Below, piece by piece: positions 41,235-50,469 of a DNA stretch of 64,000 nucleotides; position 1 is the stretch's first letter; every line of letters begins with the position of its first letter. The position numbers and the translations under genes were made by a program. Under the pieces are notes generated by a model. The model did no database searches, was not told where the DNA came from, and worked only from the letters and a program-made list of their open reading frames with translations. Source of the stretch: Acidobacteriota bacterium (GTDB lineage: Bacteria; Acidobacteriota; Terriglobia; Terriglobales; Acidobacteriaceae). The DNA is taken from contig JAJXWA010000002.1 in the NCBI GenBank assembly GCA_021781795.1, forward strand, positions 1-64,000, in the 5' to 3' direction.

Positions 41235-42161
41235 ATGCACGAGAGCCCGCCAAAGGACGATTCCATGCAGGAGCAAATCAAACTCATCGAGTGCCCGCGT
41301 GATGCATGGCAGGGGCTGGCTGCGCAGATTCCTTCGACCTTGAAGGCATCCTACCTGCGTCACCTTATTGACGCGGGTTTCCGCCACATCGATGCGGTGA
41401 GCTTTGTCTCACCCAAAGCGGTGCCGCAAATGGCAGACTCGGAAACAGTGCTCGAATTGCTTGCGCCTCCCCGTAATGTCGAGATCATCGGGATCGTGGT
41501 CAATGAAAAAGGGGCAGAGCGCGCCATTGCAACCGGTTCGGTCCAGACACTCGGCTTTCCTTATTCGATCTCTTCCGAGTTCCTGCGCCGCAATCAACAT
41601 CAGTCGCTGGAGGAATGCGTTGAGGCGCTGGAAGCGGTGGTCACAAAGGCCGACGAAGCGGAGCGCAACGTCGTTGCCTACATCTCCATGGCCTTCGGCA
41701 ACCCATACGGTGAGGCATGGAGCGCGGATGAAGTCGTGAGCGCATGCGATGTGCTGGCCGAGAGCGGCGTACACCAGATTTCGCTCGCAGACACGGTCGG
41801 CATCGCCTCACCGGAGCGCATTGCAGAGACCGTGAGCGCCGTGCTTGCTGCATATGCCAACCTCGAGATTGGCGTCCATCTGCATGCCCGGCCTATAGAC
41901 GCGCCTGCGCATATTCGGGCCGCGTATCGAGCAGGATGCCGCCGGTTCGACGGGGCCCTTGGCGGACTCGGCGGCTGCCCGTTCGCGCAGGATGCCCTGA
42001 TGGGCAATATCCCCACCGAGGTGCTCATCGAGGCCCTCCGTGAAGAGGGTGCGGCATTGCCTTCCATCGCCGGCATGGACTCGCTCCTGCAGGAGAGCCA
42101 GAGCATCGCGAAGGATTATTCTGCGGGACCTCCTGCATTTGGCACGCAGCCACGCCGGTAA
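41235..42161 (+). CDS. Hydroxymethylglutaryl-CoA lyase-like protein (CPRDAWQG variant)
   Basis: IKLIECPRDAWQGL, DAVSFVSPKAVPQMADSE, GLGGCPFAQDALMGNIPTE. Confidence 0.87.
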   Translation: MHESPPKDDSMQEQIKLIECPRDAWQGLAAQIPSTLKASYLRHLIDAGFRHIDAVSFVSPKAVPQMADSETVLELLAPPRNVEIIGIVVNEKGAERAIATGSVQTLGFPYSISSEFLRRNQHQSLEECVEALEAVVTKADEAERNVVAYISMAFGNPYGEAWSADEVVSACDVLAESGVHQISLADTVGIASPERIAETVSAVLAAYANLEIGVHLHARPIDAPAHIRAAYRAGCRRFDGALGGLGGCPFAQDALMGNIPTEVLIEALREEGAALPSIAGMDSLLQESQSIAKDYSAGPPAFGTQPRR

Positions 42162-42185
42162 AGCGAAGACATCTCAGGAGGAATC

Positions 42186-42965
42186 TTGGAGTACACGACG
42201 ATTCAGATCGAGGATGCAGCCCGCGTACGCAGAATTGTGTTGAACCGGCCGGAACGGCGCAATGCGATGACTCCCCAGATGCAATTGGAGCTCATTGCCG
42301 CGCTGGAAGATGCCGAGCAACAGGACATGCGGGTCGTTGTTCTCTCCGGAGCAGGCGAGGCCTTCTGCTCCGGTCTTGACCTCACCGTGCTGCAATCGAT
42401 GCACGACAAGTCTCCCGCCGAGCATCGGAACGATGCCGAACGAATTGCACGCCTCTTTCGCACGTTATATGAATTGCCACTGCCCACCATTGCTGCCGTT
42501 CATGGACCTGCCATCGCAGGCGGCACAGGACTCGCCATGGTCTGCGACTTCACGCTTGCAACGCCCGCGGCGAGGTTCGGATTTACGGAGGCGCGCATCG
42601 GATTTGTGCCAGCGCTTGTCTCTGCTTTCCTTGCGCTGCAGATTGGCGACAAACGCAGCCGCGATCTGCTGCTCTCGGCAAGGCTCTTCACAGCGGGAGA
42701 GGCGTTCACGCTCGGACTCGTCACGCAAGTTGTTGCGCTGGATGCTCTCCAATCGCGCGTCGACGAACTTGTTCAGTCTCTTCTGGCAAACAGTCCGCAG
42801 TCCCTCGGCGCGACCAAACGTCTATTGGCCGCTCAGAACAAGTCGTGGCTCGATACCGCCATCACGCTGGCAATGGATGCGAACGCGTACGCGCGCGACA
42901 CGGAGGACTTTCGCGAGGGCATTGCGGCATTTCTGCAAAAGCGCAAGCCTCATTGGGCTGAGTGA
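42186..42965 (+). CDS. Enoyl-CoA hydratase/isomerase family protein
   Basis: TTG start; [63 protein letters not shown]. Confidence 0.9.
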
Positions 42966-43618
42966 GATGTCAAATCTGCCGCACTCAAGCGGAAACGAAC
43001 CGGCGCATCGGTCTTCTCTTCCACCTGCGCACGAGTCACGCCGTCGGCTAGTTCAATGACCTCAAAACCGGCCGCGGTTACGTCCAGCACACACAAATCG
43101 GTAATCACACGATGCACGACAGCAGCACCTGTGAGCGGCAGTGTGCACGAGCGCAGCAGCTTTGCGCCACCATCCGGAGTGTTGTGCTCCATGACAACCA
43201 GAACGCGCTGCACGCCTGCCACCAGATCCATCGCACCGCCCATTCCCTTCACACGCTTCCCGGGAATCATCCAGTTGGCGAGATCGCCTCTTTCGGAAAC
43301 CTGCATCGCCCCGAGAATTGCAAGGTCGATGTGTCCACCACGGATCATCCCGAACGAGTCCGCGCTTGAGAAAGTGGCAGCTCCCGGCACAAACGTCACC
43401 GTCTCTTTGCCTGCATTAATCAGGTCCGCATCCACTTCAGAGACGCGCGGAAACGGGCCCATTCCGAGCAGACCATTTTCAGACTGCAGAATGACAGTCA
43501 TGCCTGCAGGGATATGGTTTGCCACCAGCGTCGGAATGCCAATGCCGAGATTCACATAGAAGCCGTTACGCAGCTCCTGCGCCGCGCGCGCCGCCATCTG
43601 GTTCCTGTTCCATGCCAC
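42950..43618 (-). CDS. 3-oxoacid CoA-transferase subunit B
   Basis: [36 protein letters not shown] start inferred just past the subunit A stop. Confidence 0.92.
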
Positions 43619-43622
43619 AGGT

Positions 43623-44363
43623 CTAGTCCTCGCGAATCGTTCTGCGCTCAATGCGCTTTTCGGGATGCGGATTGTGCACCACGCGCTGCACAAAGATGCC
43701 CGGCGTGTGAATCTCGTCCGGATCGAGTTCACCGGCAGGGACCACAATCTCTGCTTCCGCAACGGTCACGCGCCCGCATGTTGCCGCCTGCGGATTGAAG
43801 TTGCGCGCCGTGCGTCGATAGATCAGGTTGCCGTGAGTATCCGCCTTCCACGCTTTTACCAGCGCCAGATCGGCCCGAATACCATGCTCCAGAATGTGCG
43901 TCACACCGTCGAAGTCCTTGTGCTCCTTGCCTTCGGCAATCACGGTTCCCACGCCGGTCCGCGTGTAAAAACCCGGAATTCCCGCGCCGCCGGCACGCAT
44001 CCTCTCGGCCAGCGTTCCTTGCGGAGAGAACTCGACCTCCAACTCGCCCGCGAGAAACTGCCTTTCGAATTCCCCATTCTCACCCACATAACTAGAGATC
44101 ATCTTCTTCACCTGTCGCGTCGCCAGCAACAGTCCCAGACCCCAGTCATCTACGCCTGCATTGTTGCTGGCGATGGTCAGCCCGCGGACGCCTGAATCGC
44201 GCAGCGACAGAATCAGCAACTCCGGAATCCCGCACAGCCCGAAGCCGCCAATCGCTAGTAGCATGTCATCTCGCACCAGTCCATCCAGTGCACTTTTCGC
44301 GTTAGGCCACAGCTTATTCAGCCCGGCACCCGGCCCACTCATCGACCCCATACTCAGCTCCAC
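43623..44363 (-). CDS. 3-oxoacid CoA-transferase subunit A
   Basis: [48 protein letters not shown]. Confidence 0.93.
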
Positions 44364-44399: not shown

Positions 44400-44900
44400 C
44401 TACTGAAATTTTTGAAAGGCTTCAATCTGCCTTGCAAGATACTCGCGGCGCTCCACGGGCAACGAGAGCACTGTCGAAGTGGACGTTGCGCCCAGCGCGG
44501 AGAGCTTATCAATGAGCGACTCCAGATGCCGGATTGACACCACGTGCGCCTCAAGGATGAATGACTCATCACCCGTGATGCGATGGCAGCGATTAATCTC
44601 GGGCAGGTCCTTGATCGCAGTCACCGCCCGGCTTACCTGCAGATCGCCGCCAGGAATCGTAAGCCGCACCAGAACGTGAATCGGAACGCCGAGTCGCGCC
44701 GGATTGACGAGTGCATGATAGCCCGTGATGACGCCTGCCTCTTCCAGGCGATGCACGCGCTCGGCCACGGCTGGCGTGGAGAGGCCGACCTTTCTGCCCA
44801 GTTCCGCGAAGGATACGCGCGCATTTTGCTGCAAATGCTCCAGAATCTTCCATGCAATTGCATCCAGTTCAACGTGGGATGGATCAGTCTTATGCATCAT
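44400..44900 (-). CDS. Lrp/AsnC-family transcriptional regulator
   Basis: ELDAIAWKILEHLQQNARVSFAELGRKVGLSTPAVAERVHRLEEAGVITGYHA. Confidence 0.95.
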   Translation of the reverse strand: MMHKTDPSHVELDAIAWKILEHLQQNARVSFAELGRKVGLSTPAVAERVHRLEEAGVITGYHALVNPARLGVPIHVLVRLTIPGGDLQVSRAVTAIKDLPEINRCHRITGDESFILEAHVVSIRHLESLIDKLSALGATSTSTVLSLPVERREYLARQIEAFQKFQ

Positions 44901-44948: not shown

Positions 44949-46241
<1,293 letters not shown>

Positions 46242-46259: not shown

Positions 46260-47012
46260 ATGACCACAACACTCGACTCTCCCGCATCGACGTTCATCAT
46301 CGCGCAGGATTACCAATCCTATACGACGGAGCAGCATGCCATCTGGGCAGAGTTAGTGGGGCGCGTCCTACCCGAGATCGAACAACACGCTGCCCGCGAA
46401 TACCTGGACGGCTTCGGTATCATCGGTTTGCAGCGTGACCGCCTTCCCGACCTTGCCGCAGTCAGCGCTCGACTCGCGCCACGCACCGGCTGGCGCTCAA
46501 CGCCAGTCAGCGGGTTTCTGCCGGCGCCGGCATTTTTTGAGATGCTGGCGACACGGCGCTTCCCCACCACAACATGGCTGCGCAGCCGCGACGCGATGGA
46601 GTACACACCCGAACCGGACATTTTCCATGATGTCTTCGGCCATGTGCCCATGCATGCGCATCCGGTCTTCGCTGACTTCCTCGAACACTACGGCCGCGTG
46701 TGCTCCGCGATCACCAGTCCCGTCCTCCTCGAAAAGCTTGGCCGCCTCTTCTGGTACACGGTTGAGTTCGGGGTCATTCGCCAGGACAACGCGATCAAAG
46801 TATATGGCAGTGGCCTCATCAGTTCTCACGGCGAGTGCCTCAACGTCATCGGTGGCCATTGCGCGATTCGCGATTTTTCTCTGGACGAAGTCCTAGCCAC
46901 TCCCGTAAAGGTGGATGAGTTGCACAAGCTCTTGTTCGCCGTCCGCAGCTTTGACCAGATCTACGAGGCCATGCACGCAGCAGAAAAGCGCGCGCTCGCA
47001 GGCCAGTTGTGA
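46260..47012 (+). CDS. phhA: Phenylalanine 4-monooxygenase
   Basis: YTPEPDIFHDVFGHVPMHAHPVFADF, GLISSHGECLNVI. Confidence 0.95.
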   Translation: MTTTLDSPASTFIIAQDYQSYTTEQHAIWAELVGRVLPEIEQHAAREYLDGFGIIGLQRDRLPDLAAVSARLAPRTGWRSTPVSGFLPAPAFFEMLATRRFPTTTWLRSRDAMEYTPEPDIFHDVFGHVPMHAHPVFADFLEHYGRVCSAITSPVLLEKLGRLFWYTVEFGVIRQDNAIKVYGSGLISSHGECLNVIGGHCAIRDFSLDEVLATPVKVDELHKLLFAVRSFDQIYEAMHAAEKRALAGQL

Positions 47013-47024
47013 GAGGGAGACATA

Positions 47025-48341
47025 ATGACCACTGACATCCGGTATCAATCCGGGTTCGGAAATGAACTCTCAACGGAGGCTGTTGCAGGCGCTTTGCCCA
47101 TCGGCCAGAATGCGCCTCAGAGGCATCCCCTCGGCTTATACACTGAGCAGATGAGCGGCTCTGCCTTTACTGCGCCGCGCAACCTGAACCGCCGCACGTG
47201 GACCTATCGCATTCGCCCCTCGGTCACACATAAGCCCTACGAACCTCTCCCGTCTCTGCACATGCGCAGCGGGCCATTTCACGAGACAGCGGCCACACCC
47301 AACCAGCTCCGCTGGGATCCGCTTCCTCTGCCTGAAGCGCCAACCGACTTCGTCGATGGCATCGTAACCTATGGCGGCAATGGCGATCCTGCGCTGCAAA
47401 CGGGAGTCGCAATTCATCTCTACGCGGCGAATGCCTCCATGCAAGATCGCTACTTCTATTGTGCCGACGGTGAGCTGCTGATCGTTCCACAGCTTGGCCG
47501 GCTTCACTTCCACACTGAGATGGGCATTCTTGAAGCCGGCCCTGGCGAGCTCTGCGTCATTCCTCGCGGAATTAAATTTCGCGTCGTGCTCGCGGAGAAA
47601 CAAGCACGCGGTTATATCTGCGAAAACTACGGCCAGCCGTTTCGTCTCCCCGACCTTGGACCCATCGGCGCGAATGGTCTCGCCAATCCGCGCGATTTTC
47701 TGTATCCCGTAGCAGCCTTTGAGGACCGCGACGGCGACTTCCGCATCACCGCAAAATTCATGGGAAAGCTCTGGTCGGCCTCCATCGATCATTCCCCGCT
47801 CGACGTGGTTGGATGGCACGGCAACTACGCGCCCTATAAGTATGACCTTGCGCGCTTCAACTGCATCAACACGGTCTCCTTTGACCACCCAGACCCTTCC
47901 ATCTTCACAGTTCTCAGCTCGCCGTCTACTGTTGCCGGCACAGCAAACTGCGACTTCGCCATCTTTCCACCGCGCTGGATGGTCGCGGAGCATACCTTCC
48001 GCCCTCCTTGGTTCCATCGCAACCTGATGAACGAGTTCATGGGCCTTGTCTTTGGCGCCTACGATGCCAAAGCAGAGGGATTTCTTCCCGGCGGCGCCAG
48101 CCTGCACAACTGCATGGCCGGGCACGGACCCGATGCAGAGACCTATGAGCGCGCGACCCGCGCAGAGTTGAAGCCCCACTATCTCGACAACACACTGGCC
48201 TTCATGTTTGAGACCCAACTGGTCGTGCACCCCACCGCTTTCGCAATGCAGACACGCATTCTGCAACACGAGTATTTCGAATGCTGGCAAGGACTCAAGA
48301 AGCACTTCGTGAACCCGGCAGCAGGCAAGTCGCGCAAATAG
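47025..48341 (+). CDS. hmgA: Homogentisate 1,2-dioxygenase
   Basis: [62 protein letters not shown]. Confidence 0.97.
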
Positions 48342-49192
48342 GAACCGCGCTCGATGCCGCGCTGCACGGGCTGTTGGATTATGCGGGCCTCTTTCCGCCC
48401 GCACATCTTTCCGTGCGTGCGGCCATAGAAAACTATCAGCAGTACGCTTCGGGACCCCATGCCGAGGTGCTTGCATGTTTCGTGCTCTCTTTCAGTCATC
48501 TCGATGCTCTGCGTTCGATTCCGCATTCACCTGCCCAGTTCCCATTAAGCCTCACCGGCCCCTTTGATGCGCCGTGGTATGAAATTGAGCAGCTTCAGCG
48601 AGATGGTCTGCGTATTCAGATGATCGAGGTGAAAGTCTCGTCTGCCAAGCAGATTCGTTCCATTCAGGAAATGCTTCCTGCCGGGACGATCCGCTACTTT
48701 GAGATCCCGCTCGACTCATCGACGAGTACGCTTCTCCCCGCGATAGCCAACGCAGAGGGCCGCGTCAAACTGCGGCTCGGAGGCGTCATGGATGCGGCCT
48801 TCCCGGCACCGCAGCTGCTAGCAGAGACGCTACATGCCGTGGCACATCACCGACTCAAATTCAAAGCCACGGCCGGACTGCACCATCCTCTGCGGTCGAT
48901 TCAACCGCTCACGTACGAACCGAACAGTGCACTCACCAGAATGCATGGCTTCATCAATCTTCTTTCTGCCGCCGCGCTGCTACACTTGGGCGGAAGTGTG
49001 CATCAGGCAGAGGCAGTCCTGCTCGAAGAAGATCCGGCGGAATGGACGATTGCGCCCGATTGCATCCAGTGGCGTGACCATCGGTGGCCCAAAGCGCTGC
49101 TGCGGGAAGTTCGCCAATGCTTTCTGATGAGCATTGGTTCTTGTTCCTTTACTGAACCGATGGATGAGCTGGAGGCTCTTGGATGGCGCTGA
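48281..49192 (+). CDS. Uncharacterised protein encoded between hmgA and the fumarylacetoacetase gene
   Basis: Intact [56 protein letters not shown] overlap with the downstream gene; start uncertain. Confidence 0.8.
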
Positions 49193-50469
49193 CTCAAAGA
49201 AGCTGGATTGATGCCGCCAACGACTCTCGCTGTGATTTCCCTTTGCAAAATCTACCCTACGGTGCATACCGGCACGGGAACATGGTCCATCTCTGCGTGG
49301 CCATCGGCGATAAGGCGCTCGACCTCTTCCGTTGCGCAGAATCCGGGCTGTTCGCTTCGCTCGGCGCGGAAACCATCGATGCGTGCCAAAGCGAAACGCT
49401 GAATGCGCTCATGACTCTTGGCCCTTCAGCATGGGCGAGTCTCAGAAGCGCGATTGCCGGCTTGCTGGACGCGGAGCGAGCCGATGGCACACTTCGGCGG
49501 CGCATCGAACCTCACCTGCAGCCGCTCGACGCACTTGCGATGGTCATGCCCGTCGCCATCGGCGACTACACGGACTTCTACGCCTCCATTCATCACGCCA
49601 CGCGGGTTGGTAAGCTTTTCCGGCCCGACAATCCCCTCCTGCCGAATTACAAATACGTCCCCATCGGCTATCACGGACGCGCGTCTTCCATCGTGCTTAG
49701 CGGCCAGCCGGTCCACCGGCCGTCCGGCCAGATTCGCGCGGGCAACGCAGAACCGCGTTTCGCGCCCACATCTTCGCTCGACTTTGAACTTGAGATCGGT
49801 GCCTTTATCGGTCACGGCAACCTGCTGGGGCAACCGATCCCCATCGGCGAAGCGGAATCGCACATCTTCGGGCTGTGCCTCGTCAATGACTGGTCCGCTC
49901 GCGACATGCAGGCGTGGGAGTACCAGCCGCTCGGCCCTTTTCTGGCCAAGAATTTTGCGACCAGCATCTCACCGTGGATCGTTCCGCTCGCTGCTCTCGC
50001 GCCCTATCGAGTTGCCATCGCGCCGCGGCCTGCAGGCGATCCGGCTCCCCTTCCCTATCTGCAATCGCCCTCATCCGGCCAGGACGCATTCAACGTGCAG
50101 CTCGAGGTCTATCTCGAGAGCAGCCGGATGCGTGCGCAGCGTATAGCGCCCGTGCAGATCAGCCACTCCAACCTTCGCGACCTCTACTGGAGTCTTCGCC
50201 AGTTGGTTGCCCATCACGCCAGCAACGGATGCAACCTGCGCCCCGGCGACATGCTGGCCACAGGTACAATCTCCGGCCCTGCGCCGGGCTCCGAGGGATG
50301 CCTGTTGGAATTGAAATCAACCGGCTCACCGCTGCTGCTACCCAATGATGAGCAGCGTGTCTTTCTTGAAGACGGCGACACCGTGATCCTTCGCGCCTTT
50401 GCATTGTCTCCGGGCCTGCCCCGCATCGGCTTCGGCGAGTGCCGCGCCACGATCGATGCAGCGCTCTGA
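49183..50469 (+). CDS. fahA: Fumarylacetoacetase
   Basis: DYTDFYASIHHATRVGKLFRPDNPLLPNYKYVPIGYHGRASSI, DWSARDMQAWEYQPLGPFLAKNFATSISPWIV. Confidence 0.96.
   Translation: MALTQRSWIDAANDSRCDFPLQNLPYGAYRHGNMVHLCVAIGDKALDLFRCAESGLFASLGAETIDACQSETLNALMTLGPSAWASLRSAIAGLLDAERADGTLRRRIEPHLQPLDALAMVMPVAIGDYTDFYASIHHATRVGKLFRPDNPLLPNYKYVPIGYHGRASSIVLSGQPVHRPSGQIRAGNAEPRFAPTSSLDFELEIGAFIGHGNLLGQPIPIGEAESHIFGLCLVNDWSARDMQAWEYQPLGPFLAKNFATSISPWIVPLAALAPYRVAIAPRPAGDPAPLPYLQSPSSGQDAFNVQLEVYLESSRMRAQRIAPVQISHSNLRDLYWSLRQLVAHHASNGCNLRPGDMLATGTISGPAPGSEGCLLELKSTGSPLLLPNDEQRVFLEDGDTVILRAFALSPGLPRIGFGECRATIDAAL

Follow-up and report, generated by a model that had tools for sequence, protein, structure and literature searches.

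A candidate glutathione-independent maleylacetoacetate isomerase encoded between hmgA and fahA in an Acidobacteriota bacterium

Gene organization

The window, a 64,000-nucleotide stretch from an Acidobacteriota bacterium (GenBank assembly GCA_021781795.1, contig JAJXWA010000002.1, positions 1 to 64,000), carries a phenylalanine/tyrosine degradation operon in the order hpd-phhA-hmgA-X-fahA, in which X is an intact open reading frame between hmgA and fahA. An earlier note on this DNA had read the same gene order and a coupled frame of about 300 codons at 48281-49192; all four neighbours score above curated family cut-offs, and a 303-codon frame was found at that place. The features are as follows.

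42950..44363, minus strand: CoA-transferase subunits A and B (scoAB-like), resembling annotated subunits beside X-fahA on Streptomyces and Rhodococcus plasmids
44400..44900, minus strand: Lrp/AsnC-type regulator, divergent from hpd, in the same place as an annotated Lrp/AsnC regulator in Priestia and Tsukamurella
45009..46241, plus strand: hpd, 4-hydroxyphenylpyruvate dioxygenase (TIGR01263, 448 bits, cut-off 277)
46260..47012, plus strand: phhA, phenylalanine 4-monooxygenase (NF008877, PRK11913, 287 bits, cut-off 247)
47025..48341, plus strand: hmgA, homogentisate 1,2-dioxygenase (TIGR01015, 687 bits, cut-off 510.75)
48281..49192, plus strand: X, candidate glutathione-independent maleylacetoacetate isomerase (303 amino acid ORF; conserved domain from about 48341; N-terminus uncertain)
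49171..49175, plus strand: GGAGG, likely ribosome-binding site of fahA, within the 3' end of X (from the sequence)
49183..50469, plus strand: fahA, fumarylacetoacetase (TIGR01266, 494 bits, cut-off 375.3)

The genes leading from phenylalanine to acetoacetate are all present in this region of the window, except those for the isomerase and for tyrosine aminotransferase, the latter being commonly unlinked. The family match of hpd begins at amino acid 56, and its true start may lie downstream of 45009. The scoAB-like pair is a probable user of the acetoacetate released by FahA; genes resembling HMG-CoA lyase and enoyl-CoA hydratase (41235-42965) adjoin it, so the region links tyrosine with acetoacetate or leucine catabolism.

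X overlaps the end of hmgA by 61 nt and the ATG of fahA by 10 nt (ATGGCGCTGA), the latter overlap as first noted, and the GGAGG inside X ahead of fahA likely serves translational coupling. Homologues at 23-47% identity retain the reading frame and the same operon position, which argues that X is a real gene. They can be aligned only from about residue 20-25, just past the hmgA stop, and at one locus (L005) an in-frame TAA stands upstream of the alignable region; the ATG at 48281, which sits inside hmgA, may therefore be an artefact of the overlap. It is the sole ATG, GTG or TTG 5' of the DYAG motif of X, apart from one directly adjoining TTG.

Family searches and predicted fold

Searches of Pfam and NCBIfam, including the MaiA/GST zeta model TIGR01262, gave no match to X at E 1, and PDB sequences gave none with either sequence or profile queries, so that X falls in no known Pfam or NCBIfam family. 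The absence of GST-like motifs, earlier judged by eye, is borne out by the lack of any GST-family match in these three collections. Six further members from other phyla gave either nothing or chance-level matches to unrelated families in Pfam and NCBIfam, and profiles A1 and A6, along with further members, gave chance-level matches only in Pfam, NCBIfam and PDB sequences. Two assignments were rejected: the FAA_hydrolase (fumarylacetoacetate hydrolase) family, with no Pfam match, and DinB-type mycothiol-dependent maleylpyruvate isomerase or maleate isomerase, with no Pfam or NCBIfam match. Viral contigs contained no relatives of X. In open-access full text we found neither an assignment of the X protein nor a glutathione-independent maleylacetoacetate isomerase, and a gap-filling paper (PLoS Genet 2022, PMC9007349) does not mention homogentisate. 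Judged by its sequence, X is the head of a widespread, uncatalogued protein family.

An AlphaFold2 model of X built from three sequences has the strand-helix order of a (beta/alpha)8 barrel (pLDDT 68.6, pTM 0.71); a second model, with the L003 sequence first, was worse. The leading PDB matches in Foldseek were overwhelmingly TIM barrels, none reaching E 0.001, and no GST chains were among them. The TIM-barrel-looking segment described in the earlier note is in line with the strand and helix order of the model and with its fold neighbours; at this pLDDT and Foldseek significance a TIM barrel is a supported but weak prediction.

An alignment of 28 X sequences from six phyla has 23 invariant positions (window numbering: D33, A35, P39, P40, E116, E141, K163, R165, G167, G168, P175, K195, T197, A198, G199, L200, H201, G223, N226, G286, C288, S289 and P293). 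TIM barrels have their active sites in or just after strand ends, and 19 of the 23 invariant positions lie in a predicted strand or at most 6 residues after one, against 85 of 283 residues overall (hypergeometric 7e-8). The main conserved elements are placed as follows.

48377..48379, plus strand: invariant Asp33 (DYAG/DDAA motif), model strand beta1
48626..48628, plus strand: invariant Glu116, strand beta4
48701..48703, plus strand: invariant Glu141, strand beta5
48767..48775, plus strand: invariant Lys163-x-Arg165, strand beta6
48863..48886, plus strand: Lys195-A-TAGL-His201-His202 motif, strand beta7 and loop (K195, TAGL and H201 invariant, H202 nearly so)
49136..49147, plus strand: G-S/T-Cys288-Ser289 motif, just past strand beta8

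In this model Cys288 is a candidate nucleophile.

Distribution of X, fahA and maiA

Among 59 relatives of the host, 20 carry X, in the hmgA/fahA neighbourhood wherever the contig permits and nearly always between both genes. Across the host phylum, sampled as an even draw of 297 genomes with fahA counted above the TIGR01266 cut-off, X is found in 56 genomes (57 rows minus a chance match in G155), fahA in 67, and both in 55 (Fisher p ~1e-46, uncorrected for relatedness, the genome counts not being independent of phylogeny). The only X without fahA, in G250, is on a 3-kb contig. X and fahA are at most 5 kb apart in 47 of the 55 genomes; in the other 8 they are farther apart or sit on separate contigs, evidence that the two genes are tied by function and not by position alone. 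In the phylum of L003 (a Rhodothermales MAG; 198 genomes), X is found in 30 genomes and fahA in 75. The phylogenetic profile that had been proposed as a check has X tracking fahA in two phyla (55 of 56 and 30 of 30 X genomes). Since X almost never occurs without fahA, the product of X is probably the substrate of FahA.

Several single loci depart from the usual arrangement. One Planctomycetota MAG has X with fahA unlinked. A Candidatus Scalindua MAG encodes hpd, an HmgA-like protein, a FahA-like protein and the first part of X consecutively, with the remainder of X on another contig beside a transposase-like ORF (split X gene: L004:6578-8315 and L137:208-930). In two 3.7-Mb genomes of two contigs each (G154 and G223, loci L068 and L071), probably Chloracidobacterium, X is away from fahA and is followed by an aldehyde-dehydrogenase-like gene, a thiolase and enoyl-CoA-hydratase-like genes.

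MaiA was scored as TIGR01262 and glutathione synthase as TIGR01380, each above cut-off. A maiA gene was found in 1 of 297 host-phylum genomes (G255, which has no TIGR01266 fahA) and in 0 of 198 genomes of the L003 phylum, and none of the X genomes of either set has a curated maiA; six have weak GST-like matches far under the MaiA cut-off. No maiA had been visible beside X, and genome-wide the host has no TIGR01262 match even at E 0.001, nor a TIGR01380 glutathione synthase; its assembly is 88% complete, so the host absences alone are weak evidence. Of 80 genomes tested, two (G255 and G210) have glutathione synthase, and among 67 tested X genomes all but one lack it. G210 has X and glutathione synthase together, which counts against the isomerase reading.

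X is also found on 24 plasmid records, where it is labelled 'hypothetical protein'. The gene orders are hpd-X-fahA-hisC-hmgA in Priestia, cupin HmgA-like-X-fahA in Rhodococcus, hmgA-X-fahA-scoAB or X-fahA in Streptomyces, hmgA-X-fahA with transposases nearby in Pseudonocardia, hpd-hmgA-X-fahA in Tsukamurella and, identified by sequence, hmgA-X-fahA in Nonomuraea and X-fahA in the cyanobacterium Kovacikia. The plasmid tallies of X and fahA are equal in Streptomyces (11) and Priestia (6). On proteobacterial plasmids (e.g. Sphingobium TomMM15 and RAC03, Roseomonas marmotae), maiA and not X adjoins fahA. The thiols of Bacillota and Actinomycetota are bacillithiol and mycothiol, not glutathione. 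With users of both among the X phyla beyond the host's, X could be an isomerase dependent on some other small thiol in place of glutathione (bacillithiol, mycothiol, cysteine or coenzyme A); we regard this as quite unlikely, as the same invariant residues, including a cysteine of its own, recur across lineages with different thiols, an indication that X is bound to no particular thiol.

HmgA or an HmgA-like protein is encoded in 75 of 80 genomes. The HmgA-like protein of many X operons scores far under the TIGR01015 cut-off and represents a second homogentisate dioxygenase family; at L018, L019, L020, L022, L032, L050 and the plasmid loci L145-L154 it is only 22-28% identical to canonical HmgA. 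In six genomes of the L003 phylum (G499, G547, G495, G433, G402 and G483; L103-L108), a degenerate X paralogue that does not adjoin fahA is missing both the Cys and the TAGLHH motif, together with much of the GG motif; it is either an X-derived protein with a different role or a relic. X also diverges fast, at ~43% identity where HmgA has ~80%. This speed, the retention of the degenerate copy and the overlapping hmgA-X-fahA genes, which suggest coupled synthesis, would all suit a protein that assists HmgA or FahA in maturation or channeling without being a catalyst itself. Such a role is very unlikely in our estimate: the invariant polar residues lie at predicted barrel strand ends, X accompanies two very different HmgA families, and it is sometimes unlinked.

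The main evidence against an isomerase role for X is that genomes with fahA and neither X nor MaiA number 57 (12 in the host phylum and 45 in the L003 phylum); a broader profile (A4) uncovered no overlooked X in genomes that have fahA but not X. G094 and G252 retain hpd-phhA-hmgA-fahA without X. The pathway therefore does not strictly depend on X, and its isomerisation step can evidently be bypassed or solved in another way. Non-enzymatic isomerisation is known in MaiA-deficient animals with glutathione, and some of the 57 genomes may not run the pathway. A general replacement gene near fahA was sought in the X-less genomes and rejected: only regulators, a deiminase-like protein, hydrolases and other non-recurrent genes were seen, apart from a flavin-reductase-like gene in four. 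These four belong to the L003 phylum, have neither X nor MaiA, and encode a flavin-reductase-domain protein directly beside fahA (L115:5673-6527, L118:3120-4019, L120:5221-6132 and L121:5251-6174; PF01613, tested on the L115 copy), which could be another answer to the missing isomerisation step.

Because the 57 genomes have fahA but lack both proteins, isomerisation may need neither X nor MaiA and could proceed spontaneously, by FahA or by a small thiol, leaving X as a damage-control or side-reaction enzyme acting, for example, on a dead-end tautomer, a lactone or reduced maleylacetoacetate. That close relatives without X retain the operon fits such a role. We nevertheless think it unlikely, since X is placed as tightly as MaiA is in proteobacteria, and since an enzyme of this kind should also occur beside MaiA, with which X is mutually exclusive.

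Proposed function and mechanism

X occupies the slot expected of the isomerase, tracks fahA from phylum to phylum and has not turned up together with MaiA. For these reasons we consider it likely to be a maleylacetoacetate isomerase that needs no glutathione and has no relation to MaiA. The earlier note had named X as a candidate glutathione-independent isomerase, or another accessory step, at a possible MaiA position. The isomerase proposal is well supported by the lack of MaiA and glutathione synthase in the host genome, the co-occurrence with fahA, the MaiA exclusion, the operon order and the barrel model with its conserved polar residues. X would then represent a new enzyme family, without relation to MaiA, for a reaction already known. 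We lean, less firmly, towards the fuller reading that X is a cofactor-free TIM-barrel isomerase family with its own catalytic cysteine, a separate invention that enables glutathione-free bacteria in several phyla to finish homogentisate degradation and that moves on plasmids in a minimal hmgA-X-fahA cassette.

In the proposed sequence, HmgA would open the homogentisate ring to give 4-maleylacetoacetate, X from the same operon would convert its cis double bond to trans, and FahA would split the resulting fumarylacetoacetate into fumarate and acetoacetate. Lys163/Arg165 and Lys195/His201 may hold the carboxylate and the enolised diketone, while the Cys288 thiol would play the part that glutathione has in MaiA by adding to the maleyl double bond, allowing rotation about the C-C bond before the thiol departs. 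This thiol route, drawn by analogy, is the most likely mechanism for X; we favour it because MaiA works by thiol addition, as is established, and because X has one invariant cysteine at the active end of the barrel. The main alternative would be a Schiff base formed through Lys163 or Lys195.

If this is correct, the X family would explain how many glutathione-free bacteria complete homogentisate degradation: in the textbook pathway the isomerisation is glutathione-dependent, many bacterial phyla make no glutathione, and X would fill that gap. It would also give a name to a protein annotated as 'hypothetical' in several phyla, and provide a clear example of a single reaction for which two unrelated enzymes have evolved.

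Comparison with known systems

MaiA/GSTZ1 (TIGR01262) occupies the same pathway position and likewise adjoins fahA in proteobacteria; X differs in having no sequence match to it, in its predicted TIM barrel in place of the GST fold, and in its occurrence in genomes without glutathione synthase. The mycothiol-dependent maleylpyruvate isomerase of Actinobacteria (DinB fold) isomerises an analogous maleyl compound from cis to trans without glutathione, but X has no Pfam match to the DinB family and a different predicted fold. In maleate cis-trans isomerase (Asp/Glu racemase superfamily), a protein cysteine adds to the maleyl double bond; we propose that X would work alike through its own cysteine, although it has no match to that family and another fold is predicted. 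The class I TIM-barrel aldolases resemble X in that chains of deoxyribose-phosphate aldolase (DERA) and transaldolase are among its weak fold matches, but no sequence relation was found and no fold match reached E 0.001. The lysines of X on strands 6 and 7 and its K-x-T-x-G motif presumably recall those of DERA.
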